Assembly: GCA_011375345.1 (NCBI GenBank)
Contig: DRLM01000136.1
Coordinates: 1-40,351 of the forward strand
Source: Gammaproteobacteria bacterium
GTDB taxonomy: Bacteria > Pseudomonadota > Gammaproteobacteria > DRLM01
Length of the DNA stretch: 40,351 nt
Reading direction: 5' to 3'
Of the stretch, positions 2,077-11,423 are shown in pieces. Within the stretch, counting starts at the first letter, position 1; every line of letters starts with the position of its first letter. Both the position numbers and the translations under genes were made by a program. The notes below the pieces were generated by a model. The model saw only the letters and a program-made list of their open reading frames with translations, was not told where the DNA came from and did not search any database.

Positions 2077-3885
2077 ATGGAGTCAGGCCAGCGTGCAGGT
2101 GCTTTGATTGCTGCGCTCAGCGTCATGCTGAGCGTGCCCGCCTGGGTGTGCGCCGAGCCGGTGAACGATGTCCGCATTCTCATCGATGTTTCCGGCAGCA
2201 TGAAATGGAATGATCCGGACAACCTCCGCCGCCCTGCCCTGCGCATGCTCACGGGCCTGTTGCCCATGGGGGCCCGGGCCGGAGTGTGGACCTACGGCCG
2301 CTACGTCAATATGCTCGTGCCCCACGGCGAGGTCACCTCCGCCTGGCAGGACGGTGCCCGCCACGCCGCCGCCCAGATTCATTCCCACGGCCTCTACACC
2401 AATATCGAAGACGCTCTGCGCCGGGCCACCTGGGACTGGAAAAGCGCCGACCCGGGTGCCAGCCGCAGCCTGATCCTGCTCACCGACGGCCTGGTGGACG
2501 TGGCCAAGGATCAGGCCCGAAACGCCGCCTCCCGCCGCCGCATCGTCGAGGAACTGCTGCCGCGGCTGCGGGCGGCCGGTGTCACCGTGTATGCCGTCGC
2601 CCTGTCCGGTGAGGCTGACCACGCCTTGATGCGGCAAATGGCCTCGGTCACTGGCGGCTGGTTCGAACAGGTGAACGAAGCCGGGCAATTGCAGAAAGTC
2701 TTTCTGCGCCTGTTCGAAAAAGCCACGCAGCCGGATACCCTGCCGTTGGAAGAAAACGCGTTTTCGGTGGACGCCAGCGTGCAGGAAATGACGCTGCTGG
2801 TGTTTCGCCGAGCCGGTGCCGTGCCCACGGTGCTGGTGGCGCCAGACGGCCGGCGCATCGAACAGGCCGACGCCCGGCCCCCCCTGCGCTGGTACCACGA
2901 CCAGGGCTATGACCTCATTACCGTGGGCGGGCCTCAGCCAGGGCGGTGGCAGGTGATCGCTGACGTCGATGACGACAACCGCGTCACCGTGGTCACTGAT
3001 CTCAAACTGCGGGGCACCCGCTTGCCCAATGCCCTGCACCTTGGTGACCGCGTGACCGTCAACGCCCAGCTGCTGGAGCAGGGACGGGTGCTGGACGACC
3101 CGCGTTTTTTGGCCCTGACCCATTTCGAGCTGGTGCGCGAACAGGAAGGCCGGGAAGTGGAGCGCTGGCCCCTGGCCGATGACGGCCGGGCGCCGGATGT
3201 TTTCGCCGGGGACGGCACTTACAGCCTGCAGCTTGGTGAAACCTTGCCGGGGGGTGAACAGGAGCTGGTGCTGAGGGTGGAGAGCCCCACCTTCGTCCGG
3301 GTGCAGCGCCAAGCGATCAAGGTGTATGCCCAGGTCGCGGCAGTGAACCTCGATCCCCTGCCGCAGCATCCCGACGGCGTGCGGCTCACCGTGGTGCCCC
3401 ACGGCGGTCTGGTGGATCCGGAAAGCCTGAGCGTGGTGGCACAAGTGGAGACGTCCGGGGCGGCCAGGACATACCCGGTGGAGCGTGTGGGCCTTGCGGA
3501 GTGGCGGGCCGAGTTTACCGGTCTGCATCCCGGCCAGAGCACGCTCACCGTGCAGCTCTCCGGCCGTCGTGCGGATGGCCGGCGCATCAGCGACATCATC
3601 GGGCCCCTGGCCGTGGACGGGGGTGCCGTGGCAGCGGAGGGTCTGGCCGCCTCGCCTGCGGCCCAAGCGCCACCCGCCCAGGAACCCGATCTCCCCCCGG
3701 GGGCAGCACAAGAGGCTGCAGCGGATGAGGCACTCCCGGCCTTTTGGCGCGAGGCTGACTGGTTTGCCGTGGCCTGGCAATCCGCCGTCGCCAATGTGGT
3801 GCTGGGCCTGTTGTTCTTCATCGGCTACCGTCGCTGGAACCAGCCCCTGCCCGTCGTCACTCCTCCCACAAAGGCCTCATCATGA
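2077..3885 (+). CDS. Secreted/membrane-anchored von Willebrand factor A protein (TIGR03503-like)
   Basis: The 602-residue product has an N-terminal signal peptide (about 1-26, ending WVCA), a VWA domain with MIDAS motif DVSGSMK at 37-43 and LILLTDGLVD further on, a long beta-rich region (roughly 230-500), an Ala/Pro/Glu-rich linker, and one C-terminal membrane helix (about 569-583) followed by positive residues. The predicted topology is periplasmic domains with a C-terminal inner-membrane anchor. Blocks such as YTNIEDALRRAT, LPLEEN and YDLITVGGPQPGRW resemble the TIGR03503 family of marine gammaproteobacteria as I recall it. That family has no established function and is reported to share its phylogenetic distribution with GlyGly-CTERM sorting. 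ATG 2077 follows AGGGA at good spacing. It overlaps the next gene by four bases (ATGA), so it heads a coupled operon. Confidence 0.8.
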   Translation: MESGQRAGALIAALSVMLSVPAWVCAEPVNDVRILIDVSGSMKWNDPDNLRRPALRMLTGLLPMGARAGVWTYGRYVNMLVPHGEVTSAWQDGARHAAAQIHSHGLYTNIEDALRRATWDWKSADPGASRSLILLTDGLVDVAKDQARNAASRRRIVEELLPRLRAAGVTVYAVALSGEADHALMRQMASVTGGWFEQVNEAGQLQKVFLRLFEKATQPDTLPLEENAFSVDASVQEMTLLVFRRAGAVPTVLVAPDGRRIEQADARPPLRWYHDQGYDLITVGGPQPGRWQVIADVDDDNRVTVVTDLKLRGTRLPNALHLGDRVTVNAQLLEQGRVLDDPRFLALTHFELVREQEGREVERWPLADDGRAPDVFAGDGTYSLQLGETLPGGEQELVLRVESPTFVRVQRQAIKVYAQVAAVNLDPLPQHPDGVRLTVVPHGGLVDPESLSVVAQVETSGAARTYPVERVGLAEWRAEFTGLHPGQSTLTVQLSGRRADGRRISDIIGPLAVDGGAVAAEGLAASPAAQAPPAQEPDLPPGAAQEAAADEALPAFWREADWFAVAWQSAVANVVLGLLFFIGYRRWNQPLPVVTPPTKASS

Positions 3886-4793
3886 TTGTGACCGCACTTA
3901 TTGTCTTCGCTGAACTGGGCGCGATAGGACTCGTCGTGTTCCTCATTTGGTTGTTTCGCGCCCTGGGCCGGAAAAAGCGCGAGCGCGTTGCGGTGAACGC
4001 GCTGGTGGAAAACATCAATTCCCAGCAGAGCGAGCGGGTGGACCAGTTGGCCACCCTGATCAAGGATGCCGGGCAGGGCGATGACGCGGATGCCATGGAC
4101 AAAGCCAACGATTTGATTTCCCGGCAAAACGAGTTCTACCAGCAAACCATAGACATGTATTTCAGCCGCAACGATCAGCTGCTGGGCAAGTTCGACCAAC
4201 GCCTGGAGAGCGTATTGGAGCAATACCGCGCTGTCGTCGAAGGGGTGCTGGCGGGCGGGGTCAGTTCGGAGCTGAAAGACACTGTGGAGCGCCTCACCAA
4301 GGATATTCAGACTCTCAACAATGAAGTGTCGTCTCTCAGGGCGGAAAATGCAGACCTGCACATGAAGCTCAACGCCGCCGAGCAGGAGCTGGACCAATTG
4401 GGTCATGAATACGTTTCGGCCTTCAAGAAACAGAAAGAGCAGGCCGCCAAGGTCGCCGCTGCGGGCGGGGCGGCGCCAGCGCCGCTTGCCGCCTCCCCTG
4501 CGCCGGTGGCAGCGGCCGCGGTTGAGGAACCTGAGCCCGATCCCTTCGCCGAGGCAGCGGCTGCCCTGAGTGCCGGTCCGGGCGTTTCCGACGGTGCGGC
4601 CGCCGCACCAGAAAAAGAACACACCACCGTGGACCCCTATGCGGACGTGCTGGAACCGGGCGCGCCGCCGGCCGCCGGGGCGGATGTTGATGCCCGGATC
4701 GGCGCCAGTCAGGCGGAGGAGGACGCCGCCCCGTCTTTGGTGGATGAACTCAAGGCGGGTGCCGAAGCACCGTTGCGTCAGGCGCCGGACTGA
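3882..4793 (+). CDS. Membrane-anchored coiled-coil protein, second gene of VWA operon
   Basis: 303 residues. It starts with one strong membrane helix (about 4-26) and a basic stop-transfer patch (LGRKKRERV), then a long charged helical region (about 35-190) with heptad-like spacing, for example LTKDIQTLNNEVSSLRAENA, which predicts a coiled coil. The tail is Ala/Pro/Asp/Glu-rich and probably disordered and cytoplasmic. I do not recognise a catalytic domain. The start codon lies inside the end of the VWA gene (ATGA overlap), and its own stop overlaps the next start (TGATG), indicating translational coupling and probably a complex with the VWA protein in the inner membrane. It could be a scaffold or tether. 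Any more specific function would be a guess. Confidence 0.72.
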   Translation: MIVTALIVFAELGAIGLVVFLIWLFRALGRKKRERVAVNALVENINSQQSERVDQLATLIKDAGQGDDADAMDKANDLISRQNEFYQQTIDMYFSRNDQLLGKFDQRLESVLEQYRAVVEGVLAGGVSSELKDTVERLTKDIQTLNNEVSSLRAENADLHMKLNAAEQELDQLGHEYVSAFKKQKEQAAKVAAAGGAAPAPLAASPAPVAAAAVEEPEPDPFAEAAAALSAGPGVSDGAAAAPEKEHTTVDPYADVLEPGAPPAAGADVDARIGASQAEEDAAPSLVDELKAGAEAPLRQAPD

Positions 4794-5188
4794 TGTCCTC
4801 AGGGCCGGGGGGAGGTCCGGCCGCGATCCCGCCAGAGGGGGTTTATACTCCCACCCTCACCCAAGCCGAGAAGACCGCAGTGCCTGCCGAGCCACCCCGC
4901 GATGACGAGCGACCACTGGCTTCCATGGAAACGGAACGCCGGCTGCGTGAGACCTTCCCCATTGATACCCCACCGGATGAGTTTGCCGCCCGCGACGGCC
5001 TGGGGTGGTTGAACTTCCCATTTGCCCACTACCGCTACCGGGACGAAGAACTGGACCGCTGGATTCAGGCCGTCGGCGGTATTCTGCGCAATCCCAAGCG
5101 CCTGCAGGCCTGCCGCGACCGCTATTTGAATGAGGCGGAAAAGCGGCTCCTCCAGCGCTATTTGAACGAAGATTTCGGCGACGACTGA
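4793..5188 (+). CDS. Small acidic protein of unknown function, third gene of VWA operon
   Basis: 131 residues with no signal peptide or membrane helix. The first half is Pro/Gly/Glu-rich and probably flexible. The second half (about 60-131) is compact-looking, with WLNFPFAHYRYRDEELDRW and a charged helical end (LQACRDRYLNEAEKRLLQRY). I recognise no family. It begins by one-base overlap with the previous stop (TGATG), which supports a real cotranscribed gene and a function tied to the VWA and coiled-coil proteins. Its last 31 bases overlap the 3' end of the convergent matrixin gene. Confidence 0.6.
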   Translation: MSSGPGGGPAAIPPEGVYTPTLTQAEKTAVPAEPPRDDERPLASMETERRLRETFPIDTPPDEFAARDGLGWLNFPFAHYRYRDEELDRWIQAVGGILRNPKRLQACRDRYLNEAEKRLLQRYLNEDFGDD

Positions 5189-6048
5189 ACTCGAACCCGT
5201 CGTCCCAACAGCCAAAGTCCCAGCAGCAAGCCCGCGGCAGCCCCTCCCGTGGCGCCGCCGCCGCTGGCCCCGCCGCTGCTGGTGCTGCTGCCGGTGTTGC
5301 CGTTGGTGTTTGCGTTGTTATTGCCGCTGCCGGCGTATAAAAAGCTCAGGCCGGCAATGTCGTCCGCCTGCAGGCGGTTGATATCACCCACCCGGGAATT
5401 CATGATGGCGGTGACCGTTTGCGGCGGGACGGTCTCGTCCGGGTGCTCCAGGCCGGCCGCATGGCCCATTTCGTGCAAAAACACGCGGCGGAAATCGTGC
5501 GTTTCCCGGCCCAGAAAATCGGTGGTGACCGCCTGGTCCTGTTCGGGCGCCCAGCTTAGCGAGGGCGAGCTGTTCATCACCACGGCCACGTCCACGATGT
5601 GCCAGGGTTCCCCCTCAGTCTGTTCGGAGTAGCGGTGGGTCACCGCCAGGACATCATCGCCGAAGCCGTCCCCGGTGCAGGTGACGAAGGCGCGCCAGAA
5701 TGCCACTTTGACCGGCTCCGGGCGCGGCTGGCCCGCCACTGCAGGCGGCTCACCGCACAAGCTGTCCTCGGGGACCCGGGCATCCCCCGCCTGCCATTGC
5801 AAACGGGTGCCCACGGCATTCCACTCCCCCAGCACCTCGGCCGCCACCCGGTTGAAGCCCGCGCCGCGGCTGTCCAGGTTTAAATTGATGACCACGGCCT
5901 GGTCCGCCCACACCACGGGCTCGCCGCTGCTTTGTTTGTCCAGGGGCTCACCGCCCGGTACCGGGTTTTGCGCCAAGTAGGCGAAGGGCCAGGCCGCGGC
6001 GGGCACCGCCAAGGCCGCGGCGATCAGCATCAGCCTTGCCGCCGTCAT
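5158..6048 (-). CDS. Matrixin-type zinc metalloprotease with GlyGly-CTERM-like sorting tail
   Basis: 296 residues: signal peptide (about 1-19), pro/catalytic region, zinc site HEMGHAAGLEH at 192-202 (HExxHxxGxxH), the expected downstream Met-turn AIMNS with Met216, and FLYAG near the end of the catalytic fold. After an Asn/Thr/Ser linker comes a Gly-rich stretch (257-269), a short hydrophobic helix (about 270-282) and RR at 283-284, the layout of GlyGly-CTERM signals processed by rhombosortase in gammaproteobacteria. The protein is therefore expected to be exported, held in the inner membrane and then released or surface-linked. ATG 6048 overlaps the stop of the upstream gene (ATGA). The tail runs about 12 residues past the RR, longer than usual. 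No rhombosortase gene is visible in the window. Other metzincin subfamilies are possible. Confidence 0.85.
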   Translation of the reverse strand: MTAARLMLIAAALAVPAAAWPFAYLAQNPVPGGEPLDKQSSGEPVVWADQAVVINLNLDSRGAGFNRVAAEVLGEWNAVGTRLQWQAGDARVPEDSLCGEPPAVAGQPRPEPVKVAFWRAFVTCTGDGFGDDVLAVTHRYSEQTEGEPWHIVDVAVVMNSSPSLSWAPEQDQAVTTDFLGRETHDFRRVFLHEMGHAAGLEHPDETVPPQTVTAIMNSRVGDINRLQADDIAGLSFLYAGSGNNNANTNGNTGSSTSSGGASGGGATGGAAAGLLLGLWLLGRRVRVQSSPKSSFK

Positions 6049-6638
6049 GGCTGCCCCCCGCCATGCAAGCGTCCGCGGATACGGGCGGTGAAGGCCTCCA
6101 GGGTCATGGCTTCGCGCTGGGCGGCGCGGCCGGTGGTGGGGGCGGTCACCACGTGCCGGCCGAGGATGGCCACCACCGGCTTGCCCCCGGCGTCCAGCAC
6201 CCGGGCCGGGCCGCCACTTTGACGCAGGATCTGGAACATCCCCTGGTGCACCCCCACGACGGGGAAAAACAGCCGGCCGTTGCCTTTGACGAAGATCAGA
6301 TAGCGTTCGCCGGTCTTGAAACGGGGCAGGCCCGGAATGTCCAGCGCCCGGCCCGCCACCCGGCCGCCGGAGATACGCAGGGTGTAGTGGGTGCTGGGGA
6401 CCTCCCCCTTGATGAATTCCAGGTCGGTGAAGGTGATGTCGGTGTAGATCCACGGCCGCGGCCCGCCGGCGGGATCGGCGTAGCTGTGTTGTTCGCTCGC
6501 CGTGCCCACCAGCACCAGTTCGGCCCGGTCCACCAGCTCGCCGAAATCCCGTTCCACCACCGACAGGGCGGTGGCAGGGCCGGCCCACAGGGGCAGGCCC
6601 AACAGGGCGGCGAGGACGATTCCAGGTAGGTGTTTCAT
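6045..6638 (-). CDS. Secreted protein coupled to the matrixin; possible protease partner
   Basis: 197 residues with a clear signal peptide (about 1-25, MKHLPGIVLAALLGLPLWAG). The mature part has the pattern ELVLVGTASE, then a Thr/Asp beta region, LEFIKGEVPS, RISGGRVAG and FKTGERYLIFV, a small beta-barrel-like arrangement that loosely recalls NTR/TIMP-type OB folds. It has no cysteine, so it is not a classical TIMP. Its stop codon overlaps the matrixin start (ATGA), so the two proteins are probably made in fixed ratio and exported together. A role as inhibitor, chaperone or accessory subunit of the protease is inference from this coupling only. I cannot assign the family firmly. Confidence 0.65.
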   Translation of the reverse strand: MKHLPGIVLAALLGLPLWAGPATALSVVERDFGELVDRAELVLVGTASEQHSYADPAGGPRPWIYTDITFTDLEFIKGEVPSTHYTLRISGGRVAGRALDIPGLPRFKTGERYLIFVKGNGRLFFPVVGVHQGMFQILRQSGGPARVLDAGGKPVVAILGRHVVTAPTTGRAAQREAMTLEAFTARIRGRLHGGGQP

Positions 6639-7380: not shown

Positions 7381-10300
7381 TCACTTCTCACTGGCGCGGC
7401 GCCGCTGTTCCATGATGCGCTTCAAATCCTCCACGGTGAACCTGGGTTTGCCGAATTTGGGCATGGCTACCGTGAGGGCCCGGGGGAATCGCTGGAAGGT
7501 CCCGGCGCTGGCGATGCCGAGATCGTAGTCACCCAGGGGCAGGGATTTGTCCAGGGTGAGCTGGAAACGGCGTTCGTCCCTGCGCGCCGCGCCCAGCGGG
7601 GGCATGGGCTTTAGCGCGGTGACGATGTCCTGCCCCCCCAGATACACCGCCCCCGCCGCGGCGACCGCCAAGCCCCGGGCCGGGTTCAGCAGGGGTCGTT
7701 GTTCGATGATTCTGGGCCGCTGGATGTCGCTGGCATCGACGAGCCACAAGCTTCTCTCACCCAGAGCGTAGAGGTGCCGCTGTTCGGCCTTGAGTGCCCT
7801 GAGGGGGCCCAGCGCCACGGTGGCGCCTTCCCGCCAGCCTTCGCTGGTGCGACCCCACACGGTGACGCCCCCATGGCGGCGGTAAAGATACAGGCGTTCT
7901 GTTGTGCCGTGAGCCAGGCCGCGGTAGCCCGTGGCATGCCGGCTCAGTGGCGCAGCGGTCCAGTCCGCCGTGGCCCGCTGGTGCACGGTGCCGTCCCCTT
8001 CCACAAGCCACAGGCTGTCCCCGGTGAGCCACAGGGCCGCGGCGTCCACGGGCAGGCGTTCCACGATCCGCGGTTTGCGGGGGGTGGTGGCGTCAATTAC
8101 CAGCACGTCCCCCTCGTCCTGGGCAGCATAGACAGCGCCGTGGGCGACGGCCACGGCGGTGACGGCCTGATCGGTGTCAAGCCAGGCGGCCAGGCGGGCC
8201 TGGTAGGGATTGCTGATATCGATCAGCGCCAGGCCGGTCGGGGTGCCCACCGCCGCCAGGTCCCCGCTCACGGCCACCTGGCGGGCCGGGGCGGGCAGAT
8301 CCACCCCGGTTATCCAGGTGGGGTTGAGGGTGTTTTTGATGTCGAAAATCTGCAGCCCCCCCTCGTCCTGGGCGGCATAGAGATAGGGGCCCTGGGTGGC
8401 CAGGGTCTGGATCTCACCCCGGCGGTGGTACTGTCCGTTCAGGGTCGGGCGGCGGGGGTCGGAGAAATCCAGCACCTCGAACCCGCCCCACCAGTCAGCC
8501 ACGAACACGGTCTCGCCCCGGGCCTTGACGCCCCAGGCGGCCCCCGGCGTGTCGTAGCTGCCCAGCAGGCGCGGCCGGGCCGGGTTGCTTACGTCCACCG
8601 CGTGCACTCCCGCCAGCCAGTCGGCCAGGAACAAGGTTTGCCCCACCCGGTCCAGCCCGCGGGCGTTGCCCGGGGTGGCCAGCTCGGCCACCGGCTTGGG
8701 CCGCACCGGGTCGGCCACGTCCAGCACCTTGAGGCCTTGATCGAAGAAGGTGAGATAGGCCAGATCCTCTGCCACCAGCACGTCTTCCAGGCGGCCGCCG
8801 GGGTTGTACTGGGCCAGCAGCAGGGGCGTGGCCGGTTGCTGGACGTCGTAGATGAGCAGGCCGGCCTGGTCGTCGGCCACGTACAGGGTGTCGCCGGCGG
8901 GCTCGATACCCCAGGCCATGCCCGCCGTGGTCACGCTGGTGATGAGCCGAGGATGGAGGGGGTCAGCAATATCGATGATCTGAAAGCCGCCGCGGTGTCC
9001 GGCCAGGTAGAGCCGGTCGCCGGCCAGCTTGGGGATGTAGGCCAGCCCCGGGGTTGGGAGGTGAGCGACCAGGCGGGGCCGGCGCGGGTCAGCCACGTCC
9101 GCCACCTGCAGGCCGTGGTCGTCGTCGGCGATGAAGGCGTAATTCCCCCGCACCGCCACCCCCTTGGGGGAGCCGGGGGTGTGCAGGCTGGCCAGCAGGC
9201 GGGGTCGGGCGGGGTCGGCGATGTCGTACATATGGATGCCGGAGAACCAGTCCGCCACATACGCGACGTCACCCTGAAGCCACAGCCGCCGTTCGCCGCC
9301 GAAATTGACCCCCCGGCCCACATCCAGGCCCTCGTTGCCCAGGCGCGGGGTTTCCATGCCGAAATCCAGCCGCAGCAGGGCGCCGTCCTGCCCCAGCCAC
9401 AAGGTGCCCGGCGCGGCGGCGAAAGGGGCGGGCAGGGCGGCTGCGGGGAAGGCGGCGACAGTTTCGGGCATGTCGCCGATGCCGGCGTCCAGGGCCAGGA
9501 ACCGGCCGGCGGTGTTGCGCACCCAGACCCGGTCCGCCAGGGCGGTCACGCCGTCCACCTCCCCCAGGCGGCTGTGGCTGCCCAGCCAGCGGGGAGCGTC
9601 GGGGGCGCTCACATCCAGCACCAACAGCCCCCGCCGACCCAGGCCCACATAGGCGCGTTTCCCCGCCAGGGCCAGGGCGCGGGCGGGGCCGGTGCTGGGG
9701 TAGTCCGCCACCGGCTCCGGTGCGGTGGCATCGGCCCAGTTCCAGATTTGCACCCCGTTCGGGCCGGCGGCGAAATACAACCAGGCCCCCTGGGCCGCGA
9801 TGGCCTGGACGGTGAAGGGCAGGGGTCGCTCGGCCACGGCCCGGAGTCCGGTTGCCGCCGCCAGCTCCAGGATCTGCAAACGGCCGTCGGCCAGCACCAG
9901 GGCGGCGTAGCCGGGCCGGCCGGCGAACTGGCGGATGGCCGCCTCCGGCGCATAGTGGCCGATGACCGCCGGCGCCGCGGCGTCGGCCACATCGAACACG
10001 GTGAGGCCGCCGCTGTCGTCCAGGGCCAGCAGGGCCTCGCCGGCGCGGGCCAGGCGGCGGTAGTTGCCTGTTTCCAGCCGCGCCACCGGCTCCCCCGTGG
10101 CCCCGTCCACTGCCAGCAGCCCGGCTGCCCCCGCTGCCACCCACAGGGTGTTGCCCAGATGCAACACGTCGCGGGCCTCCGCCGGCAGCGCCAGGCGTTG
10201 GGTGATTGTGGGCACCGCCGGCAGCAGACTCAGACGGGCCTGTGCCGGCAGGGCTTCGGCCAGGGTGAGTTCCACCGTGGCGGATTTGCCGAAGGTGACG

Positions 10301-10389
10301 GTGGTGGGGTCTACGGTAATTTGGGGGGCGGCCGTGGCCAGCGAGGCTGTGAGGGCGAGGGCGGCGCACAGGTACGGCTTCATCTTCAT
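7381..10389 (-). CDS. Large exported LVIVD-repeat beta-propeller protein
   Basis: 1002 residues: signal peptide (first about 20, ending ATAAP), a short beta domain, then at least 14 LVIVD-type blades of the form h-hDh-DP--P-hh, such as MYDIADPARPRLLASL, VADVADPRRPRLVAHL, IIDIADPLHPRLITSV, VLDVADPVRPKPVAEL and AVDVSNPARPRLLGSY. The repeats would make one or two beta-propellers outside the cytoplasm. A final beta segment (LTLDKSLPLGDYDLGIASAG) and a basic helix close the protein, and there is no C-terminal membrane anchor or sorting tail. ATG 10389 gives a four-base ATGA overlap with the upstream tas-like gene and has no SD of its own, so translation is probably coupled. An ATG at 10383 is an alternative. 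LVIVD proteins are poorly characterised, and ligand or partner binding is the likely role. Confidence 0.85.
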   Translation of the reverse strand: MKMKPYLCAALALTASLATAAPQITVDPTTVTFGKSATVELTLAEALPAQARLSLLPAVPTITQRLALPAEARDVLHLGNTLWVAAGAAGLLAVDGATGEPVARLETGNYRRLARAGEALLALDDSGGLTVFDVADAAAPAVIGHYAPEAAIRQFAGRPGYAALVLADGRLQILELAAATGLRAVAERPLPFTVQAIAAQGAWLYFAAGPNGVQIWNWADATAPEPVADYPSTGPARALALAGKRAYVGLGRRGLLVLDVSAPDAPRWLGSHSRLGEVDGVTALADRVWVRNTAGRFLALDAGIGDMPETVAAFPAAALPAPFAAAPGTLWLGQDGALLRLDFGMETPRLGNEGLDVGRGVNFGGERRLWLQGDVAYVADWFSGIHMYDIADPARPRLLASLHTPGSPKGVAVRGNYAFIADDDHGLQVADVADPRRPRLVAHLPTPGLAYIPKLAGDRLYLAGHRGGFQIIDIADPLHPRLITSVTTAGMAWGIEPAGDTLYVADDQAGLLIYDVQQPATPLLLAQYNPGGRLEDVLVAEDLAYLTFFDQGLKVLDVADPVRPKPVAELATPGNARGLDRVGQTLFLADWLAGVHAVDVSNPARPRLLGSYDTPGAAWGVKARGETVFVADWWGGFEVLDFSDPRRPTLNGQYHRRGEIQTLATQGPYLYAAQDEGGLQIFDIKNTLNPTWITGVDLPAPARQVAVSGDLAAVGTPTGLALIDISNPYQARLAAWLDTDQAVTAVAVAHGAVYAAQDEGDVLVIDATTPRKPRIVERLPVDAAALWLTGDSLWLVEGDGTVHQRATADWTAAPLSRHATGYRGLAHGTTERLYLYRRHGGVTVWGRTSEGWREGATVALGPLRALKAEQRHLYALGERSLWLVDASDIQRPRIIEQRPLLNPARGLAVAAAGAVYLGGQDIVTALKPMPPLGAARRDERRFQLTLDKSLPLGDYDLGIASAGTFQRFPRALTVAMPKFGKPRFTVEDLKRIMEQRRRASEK

Positions 10390-11423
10390 GGGCACGGGTT
10401 GGGGTTGTTGTGGTGGATCTCGTCGATGCCCGCCAGCACCGTCGGTGGCAGGGTCAGCGCGGTGCTGGCGATGTTGCTTTTGAGCTGGTCCAAGGTGGTG
10501 GCGCCGATGAGGGTGCTGGTGACAAAGGGCCGGCTGGTGACAAAGGCCAGGGCCATCTGGGCCGGGTCCAGACCGTGGCGGCGGGCCAGTTGCACGTAGG
10601 CCTCGGCGGCGGCCTGACCGCGGGGCTTGGTGTAGCGGCTGAAACGGGCGTAGCGGCTGAGGCGTGCCCCGGCCGGTCTGGCGCCGCCCAGGTATTTGCC
10701 GCTCAAGGTACCGAAGCCCAAGGGTGAATAGGGCAAGAGGCCCACGTTCTCGCGGATGGCCATTTCCGCCAGCCCCACTTCAAAGCTGCGGTTGAGCAGG
10801 CTGTAGGGGTTCTGAATGCTCACCACCCGCGGCAGGCCCAGGCGGTCGGACAAACGCAGGGCCTCCGCCACCCCCCAGGGGGTTTCGTTGGACAGCCCGA
10901 TGTGGCGCACCTTGCCTGTCCGCACCAGTTCCGCCAGGGTCTGCAGGCTCTCTGCCAGGGGCACGGCCTGGTCCTGGGGATCGTGCTCGTAGCCCAGCCT
11001 GCCAAAGCAATTGGTGCGCCGGTCAGGCCAGTGGAGCTGGTAGAGGTCGATGTAGTCGGTCTGCAGGCGTGCCAGGCTGCCGTCCACCGCTGCCAGAATG
11101 TGCGCGCGGCTGAGGCGCGGCCCGCGGCGGATGTAGTTGAGATCGCTGGCCCGGCCGGTGACCTTGGTGGCCAGCACGAGCCGGTCGCGCCCGCCCCGCT
11201 TCTTCAGCCACCTGCCTATGATGGCCTCTGTGGCGCCAAAGGTCTCCGCCCGCGGTGGCACCGGATACATTTCCGCCGCGTCGATGAAGTTCACCCCGGC
11301 GGCCCGGGCGTAGTCCAGCTGGGCGTGGGCCTCGGACTCGCTGTTCTGTTCGCCGAAGGTCATGGTGCCCAGGCACAGGGCGCTGACCTTGAGATCCGTG
11401 CGGCCTAGGGAATGGTATTCCAT
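10386..11423 (-). CDS. tas: Aldo/keto reductase, Tas-like
   Basis: 345 residues of NAD(P)H-dependent oxidoreductase with the AKR barrel. LGTMTFGEQNSESEAHAQLD, AAEMYPVPPRAET, TNCFGRLGYEHDPQDQA and IQNPYSLLNRSFEVGLAE match E. coli Tas closely, and the catalytic Asp/Tyr (FIDAAEMYP), Lys (LATKVTG) and His (QLHWPDR) are all present. Tas can complement tyrosine auxotrophy in stationary E. coli, but the natural substrate is unknown. The start is ATG 11423 because AGGAG (11432-11436) is 8 bases away. The in-frame GTG at 11429 is too close to that SD. Its stop overlaps the start of the LVIVD gene, an unexpected operon partner for a cytosolic reductase. Confidence 0.92.
   Translation of the reverse strand: MEYHSLGRTDLKVSALCLGTMTFGEQNSESEAHAQLDYARAAGVNFIDAAEMYPVPPRAETFGATEAIIGRWLKKRGGRDRLVLATKVTGRASDLNYIRRGPRLSRAHILAAVDGSLARLQTDYIDLYQLHWPDRRTNCFGRLGYEHDPQDQAVPLAESLQTLAELVRTGKVRHIGLSNETPWGVAEALRLSDRLGLPRVVSIQNPYSLLNRSFEVGLAEMAIRENVGLLPYSPLGFGTLSGKYLGGARPAGARLSRYARFSRYTKPRGQAAAEAYVQLARRHGLDPAQMALAFVTSRPFVTSTLIGATTLDQLKSNIASTALTLPPTVLAGIDEIHHNNPNPCP

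Follow-up and report, generated by a model that had tools for sequence, protein, structure and literature searches.

A VWA-domain gene heads an operon that runs tail to tail into a gene for a matrixin-like metalloprotease with a glycine-rich C-terminal end, and this arrangement raises the question of whether the operon serves the GlyGly-CTERM/rhombosortase export route. The sequence-only reading had proposed that it does. We analysed the locus in its window, the whole 40,351-nucleotide stretch of contig DRLM01000136.1 from a gammaproteobacterial assembly (GCA_011375345.1), and compared it with 276 genomes of the class, most of which are drafts.

Organisation of the locus

The features referred to below are listed by position.

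2077..3885, plus strand: VWA protein, 602 aa (PF00092, 46.6 bits)
2737..3591, plus strand: TIGR03503-like region, residues 221-505 of the VWA protein (136.6 bits against a cut-off of 305.6)
3793..3795, plus strand: codon of Asn573, within the C-terminal transmembrane (TM) helix of the VWA protein (invariant in 57/57 aligned rows)
3882..4793, plus strand: coiled-coil (CC) protein, 303 aa, conserved partner of the VWA gene
3912..3914, plus strand: codon of Glu11, within the CC TM helix (invariant in 31/31 aligned rows)
4793..5188, plus strand: ORF3, small acidic protein of 131 aa whose gene is coupled to that of CC
5158..6048, minus strand: matrixin-like zinc metalloprotease of 296 aa that carries a signal peptide (Peptidase_M10, PF00413, 27.0 bits, cut-off 24)
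5161..5280, minus strand: GlyGly-CTERM-like tail of the matrixin by a tripartite rule (Gly-rich motif, TM helix, RR), with a 12-residue extension
5443..5475, minus strand: zinc-binding motif HEMGHAAGLEH, residues 192-202, read from the sequence
6045..6638, minus strand: secreted 197-aa protein, overlapping the matrixin start by 4 bp

The VWA, CC and ORF3 genes are real and form a translationally coupled plus-strand operon. The VWA/CC junction is an ATGA overlap and the CC/ORF3 junction a TGATG overlap, which bears out the earlier description of two coupled partner genes, one for a membrane coiled-coil protein and one for a small acidic protein. The operon was also correctly described as convergent with the matrixin-type gene and touching it, the two overlapping by 31 bp. 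The same gene order (FBP, VWA, CC, ORF3, the reversed matrixin and 197-aa genes, MarC) was found in G001, G002 and G004, and at the G005 locus the contig stops at ORF3. The physical linkage of the operon to a likely sorting substrate is thus kept in all three family relatives with enough flanking sequence, which represent three genera, and the arrangement was seen only in the source bacterial family. Since the whole block is conserved, including flanking housekeeping genes, the linkage alone says little about function. ORF3 was likewise confined to the source family at the loci examined, and its product is probably a lineage-specific cytoplasmic partner of VWA-CC. Further along the window, positions 7381-10395 on the minus strand encode a protein of 1004 aa in which the LVIVD beta-propeller repeat recurs about ten times; homologues lie at the equivalent place in G001 and G004, so that it belongs to the conserved block of the family.

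Relationship of the VWA protein to TIGR03503

The VWA gene had been said to resemble TIGR03503. We observed a homologous region located after the VWA domain (E 1e-39, model positions 2-297 of 374), and in this sense the resemblance holds; membership does not, as the score lies far under the family cut-off. Among the 276 genomes a single protein exceeded that cut-off, a 439-aa protein of G131 (L080 1372-2691). It shares with the window protein the homologous region, a signal peptide and a C-terminal TM helix carrying an Asn, and differs in having neither a VWA domain nor a CC neighbour. It could be argued from the E value across residues 221-505 and from the shared Asn-bearing helix that the window protein truly belongs to TIGR03503 and just happens to bear a VWA domain, but a score of less than half the cut-off and the build of the only protein above it make this improbable. 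On the partial sub-cut-off match and the VWA-less G131 member, the window protein is better described as a relative of TIGR03503. Since the only protein of the class above the cut-off has no VWA domain, the comparison suggests that TIGR03503 may be one branch, devoid of the domain, of a broader family of VWA proteins. A published co-occurrence of TIGR03503 with GlyGly-CTERM/rhombosortase could not be traced in a literature search of limited scope; the 2011 rhombosortase paper gives at most 88 of 108 genomes for the next-best co-occurring families.

A coiled-coil gene is the conserved partner of the VWA gene

The VWA protein consists of a signal peptide, a VWA domain (residues 31-208), Ig/beta-sandwich domains, a disordered linker and a C-terminal TM helix (562-587). 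An AlphaFold model (pLDDT 88, pTM 0.81) was confident for the VWA domain, the beta domains and the TM helix, and a Foldseek search with it returned generic VWA and Ig-like structures only. The DxSxS, Thr and Asp positions of the MIDAS (D37, S39, S41, T108 and D137) are invariant in all 57 aligned rows. Beyond Arg408 the sole invariant residue is Asn573, the remainder of the C-terminal TM helix being variable in the same rows. With its probably periplasmic VWA domain, intact MIDAS and TM helix the protein resembles membrane-anchored MIDAS VWA proteins in general, and many VWA structures match its fold; what sets it apart is its partner, a coiled-coil protein that crosses the membrane once, carries a Glu within the membrane and is described by no Pfam model. 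At 23 named loci, among them L177 (4771-5664), the surroundings of the VWA gene include a gene resembling lipid A acyltransferases, which probably reflects lineage synteny.

CC is laid out as an N-terminal TM helix, a putatively cytoplasmic helical/coiled-coil region and an acidic disordered tail. In its AlphaFold model (pLDDT 77) a long helix at the N terminus is followed by a helical region, then by a helix of 65 residues and finally by a disordered tail; the TM helix is variable apart from Glu11 in the 31 aligned rows. Foldseek with the CC model returned nothing significant, and no Pfam family describes CC across its members. Assignments to TelA or similar Pfam families were rejected, as each was obtained for one member and amounts to coiled-coil noise.

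The CC gene lies directly downstream of the VWA gene in 57 of the 72 named loci with room for it (Sedimenticola, Thiodiazotropha, tubeworm symbionts, Methylophaga and Pleionea) and in 46/59 loci of the genome set, with a gap of usually a few bases or an overlap; some genomes belong to both sets. CC occurs in 54 of the 276 genomes, 51 of which are VWA-positive (odds ratio 128, p 3e-32, a statistic that ignores phylogeny). No other neighbour was conserved across lineages, and a conserved third gene was sought outside the family and was absent at the loci examined. The true partner of the VWA gene is the coiled-coil gene at 3882-4793. VWA-CC is a widespread bacterial inner-membrane protein pair, hitherto undescribed: our literature search, limited in scope, found no paper that describes the pair or names TIGR03503.

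A few genomes (G090, G104 and G210) carry CC without VWA. CC homologues without a VWA neighbour were also read in L253 (7993-8622), L254 (8109-8759), L255 (7394-7987) and L256 (8810-9679), and those of L253 and L254 retain the intramembrane Glu. In G034 the TM Asn of VWA and the TM Glu of CC are both absent together. The Asn is kept in 10/13 VWA-family proteins that have no adjacent CC, the VWA-less TIGR03503 protein included; for this reason we treat a pairing of Asn573 with Glu11 as a hypothesis, and the Asn may serve another partner or homodimerisation.

The matrixin and its C-terminal tail

Peptidase_M10 matched all four matrixin orthologues, in which the His and Glu ligand positions of the HExxHxxGxxH motif are invariant. 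The window matrixin ends in GGASGGGATGGAAAGLLLGLWLLGRRVRVQSSPKSSFK. The Gly-rich stretch and short helix ascribed to it earlier are present; the RR is not the terminus, as 12 residues follow it, and residues beyond the Arg cluster are also seen in some other tails of the source family. A profile search with TIGR03501, which had been proposed as a check, gave no match for this tail at the cut-off of 15.5 bits. The protein has the structural hallmarks of a GlyGly-CTERM substrate, namely a signal peptide, a Gly-rich motif without Cys, a TM helix and basic residues near the C-terminus, and the orthologues end in GGGGADGGWLLVGLGVLLATARRRHSRQIKG (G001), GGGGAWSPLALLLCMAGLGGALRQR (G002) and GGGGADLGWGILLLAAVTRAARRFYLDR (G004), all of the Gly-rich/TM/Arg type. 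When the tripartite rule was applied around the 59 VWA loci to 802 ORFs with a minimum length of 120 aa, it picked out only the four matrixins and one VWA protein, a count that shows rarity and is not an independent test, since the rule was written after the tails had been seen.

The other proposed check, a search for rhombosortase in the genome, was positive: contig C39 of the source genome encodes one (TIGR03902, 155.7 bits against a cut-off of 84), with the active-site Ser and His motifs GLSGALHG and VDAHLYG read in L006 5912-6514. The gene lies far from the VWA operon and is flanked by a glnD-like gene and a gene for a dapC-like aminotransferase. The type II secretion (T2SS) secretin GspD is also present (589 bits). 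Among distant matrixin homologues, those of G222, G170 and G214 carry a Gly-Gly/TM tail, weak in its basic end in G170, and all three genomes are rhombosortase-positive; those of G020 and G115 are tail-less and their genomes rhombosortase-negative. With the G274 homologue, cut by a contig end, left out of the complete cases, tails were found in 7/7 rhombosortase-positive and 0/2 rhombosortase-negative genomes.

The tail might be a mere C-terminal membrane anchor that rhombosortase never cuts, as its score below TIGR03501, its being overlooked by a family-specific tail model and the 12 residues beyond RR would allow. We consider this unlikely, because the orthologues end in a clear Gly-Gly/TM/Arg, tail and rhombosortase go together in 9/9 complete cases, and extended tails occur on other proteins of the family too. 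The orthologue tails and this concordance support the matrixin as a candidate substrate despite the poor score of its own tail, and it is probably processed by the GlyGly-CTERM/rhombosortase route. The Cys-less tripartite tail, the rhombosortase and the T2SS secretin resemble the known system (TIGR03501/TIGR03902), from which the locus differs in the sub-cut-off tail and in a VWA-CC pair not tied to the route. Distant homology was also seen to the myxosortase-dependent metalloprotease MXAN_2677/2678 (NF041905, MYXO-CTERM), the match extending through the tail in one matrixin orthologue (35.1 bits), but this is far under the 250-bit cut-off and the tail motif here has no Cys.

A homologue of the 6045-6638 gene adjoins the matrixin gene in 6/6 distant genomes, where neither has a VWA gene as neighbour. 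This gene is the conserved operon partner of the matrixin.

Is the VWA operon part of the sorting route?

According to the accessory-complex proposal, the three-gene operon assists GlyGly-CTERM/rhombosortase export, the matrixin being the substrate to which it is linked. The linkage in three genera of the source family speaks for it, as does a modest tendency of the VWA family and rhombosortase to occur in the same genomes: the VWA family was found in 77 genomes, rhombosortase in 105 and both in 45 (odds ratio 3.3, p 3e-5, uncorrected for phylogeny), against an odds ratio of 128 for CC with the VWA family. Set against this, rhombosortase is absent from 32/77 genomes with the VWA family and from 20/51 with VWA-CC, and the VWA family is absent from 60/105 rhombosortase genomes. 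The VWA loci examined outside the source family had no convincing GlyGly-CTERM neighbour, and the tripartite-rule matches beyond the matrixins were the VWA protein of G247 itself and one unrelated ORF (L210). In Vibrio cholerae the tag together with RssP is enough for association with the membrane, and secretion needs a second signal (PMC13393428). The family-only arrangement, the VWA-CC genomes without rhombosortase and the sufficiency of the tag plus RssP together make an accessory complex unlikely, and we give it very little credence. The suggestion had looked to conservation of the three-gene operon beside sorted proteins, which was seen only within the source family; VWA-CC often occurs without rhombosortase, and the matrixin elsewhere without a VWA neighbour.

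Proposed model

We favour, as the probable reading, two independent units placed tail to tail, a VWA-CC inner-membrane complex and a rhombosortase-processed surface metalloprotease unit. It builds on the structure and conservation of the genes, their adjacency and co-occurrence, the invariant residues and the presence of rhombosortase and GspD, from which we infer helix pairing, complex formation, signalling and matrixin processing. We read 2077-4793, with the family-specific third gene, as an undescribed two-protein inner-membrane complex and not as sorting machinery. By positive-inside reasoning the VWA domain would be periplasmic and the coiled coil cytoplasmic. The MIDAS ligand-binding domain and the Ig-like domains would thus be held outside by one C-terminal helix, and CC would cross the membrane once and extend inwards as a rod of helical/coiled-coil structure that ends in a disordered acidic tail. 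Asn573 and Glu11 may pair the two TM helices, and such pairing could couple MIDAS ligand binding outside to an organising or signalling scaffold inside. A bolder version, which we regard as rather doubtful, makes VWA-CC an undescribed gammaproteobacterial integrin-like outside-in receptor working through the Asn-Glu pair, with TIGR03503 as a branch that has lost both the VWA domain and the partner. In the two-unit reading, the matrixin would be a secreted metalloprotease and the 6045-6638 product its small partner, also secreted; the protease would be exported by Sec, cut by rhombosortase and anchored in the membrane, and then transferred to the surface by the T2SS.

Through these results the orphan TIGR03503 and its VWA relatives gain a definite partner gene, together with two residues within the membrane that can be tested. 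The results also argue against seeking the role of the family in C-terminal protein sorting.

Other candidate substrates in the source genome

Since the metalloprotease tail tracks rhombosortase though the standard model misses the window tail, substrate lists based on TIGR03501 appear to be incomplete. TIGR03501 matches in the source genome were rejected as substrates, being internal or unconvincing. The tail model specific to the family, from which the window matrixin tail had been left out, missed that tail in the source genome and picked out two further substrates, one clear and the other possible. A 773-aa frame in L167 (contig C36 of the source genome, match 1501-1587), which lies outside the TIGR03501 matches, ends in GSGGGGALDAAAIAVLLAGAAGRRRMRR and is probably another rhombosortase substrate. 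In L168 (contig C10), 1429-1992 on the minus strand encodes an RHS-repeat-like protein with a Gly-Gly/TM/Arg segment, SGGTGALGGAVLLILLLGTGLGCMRKAVK, near its end.
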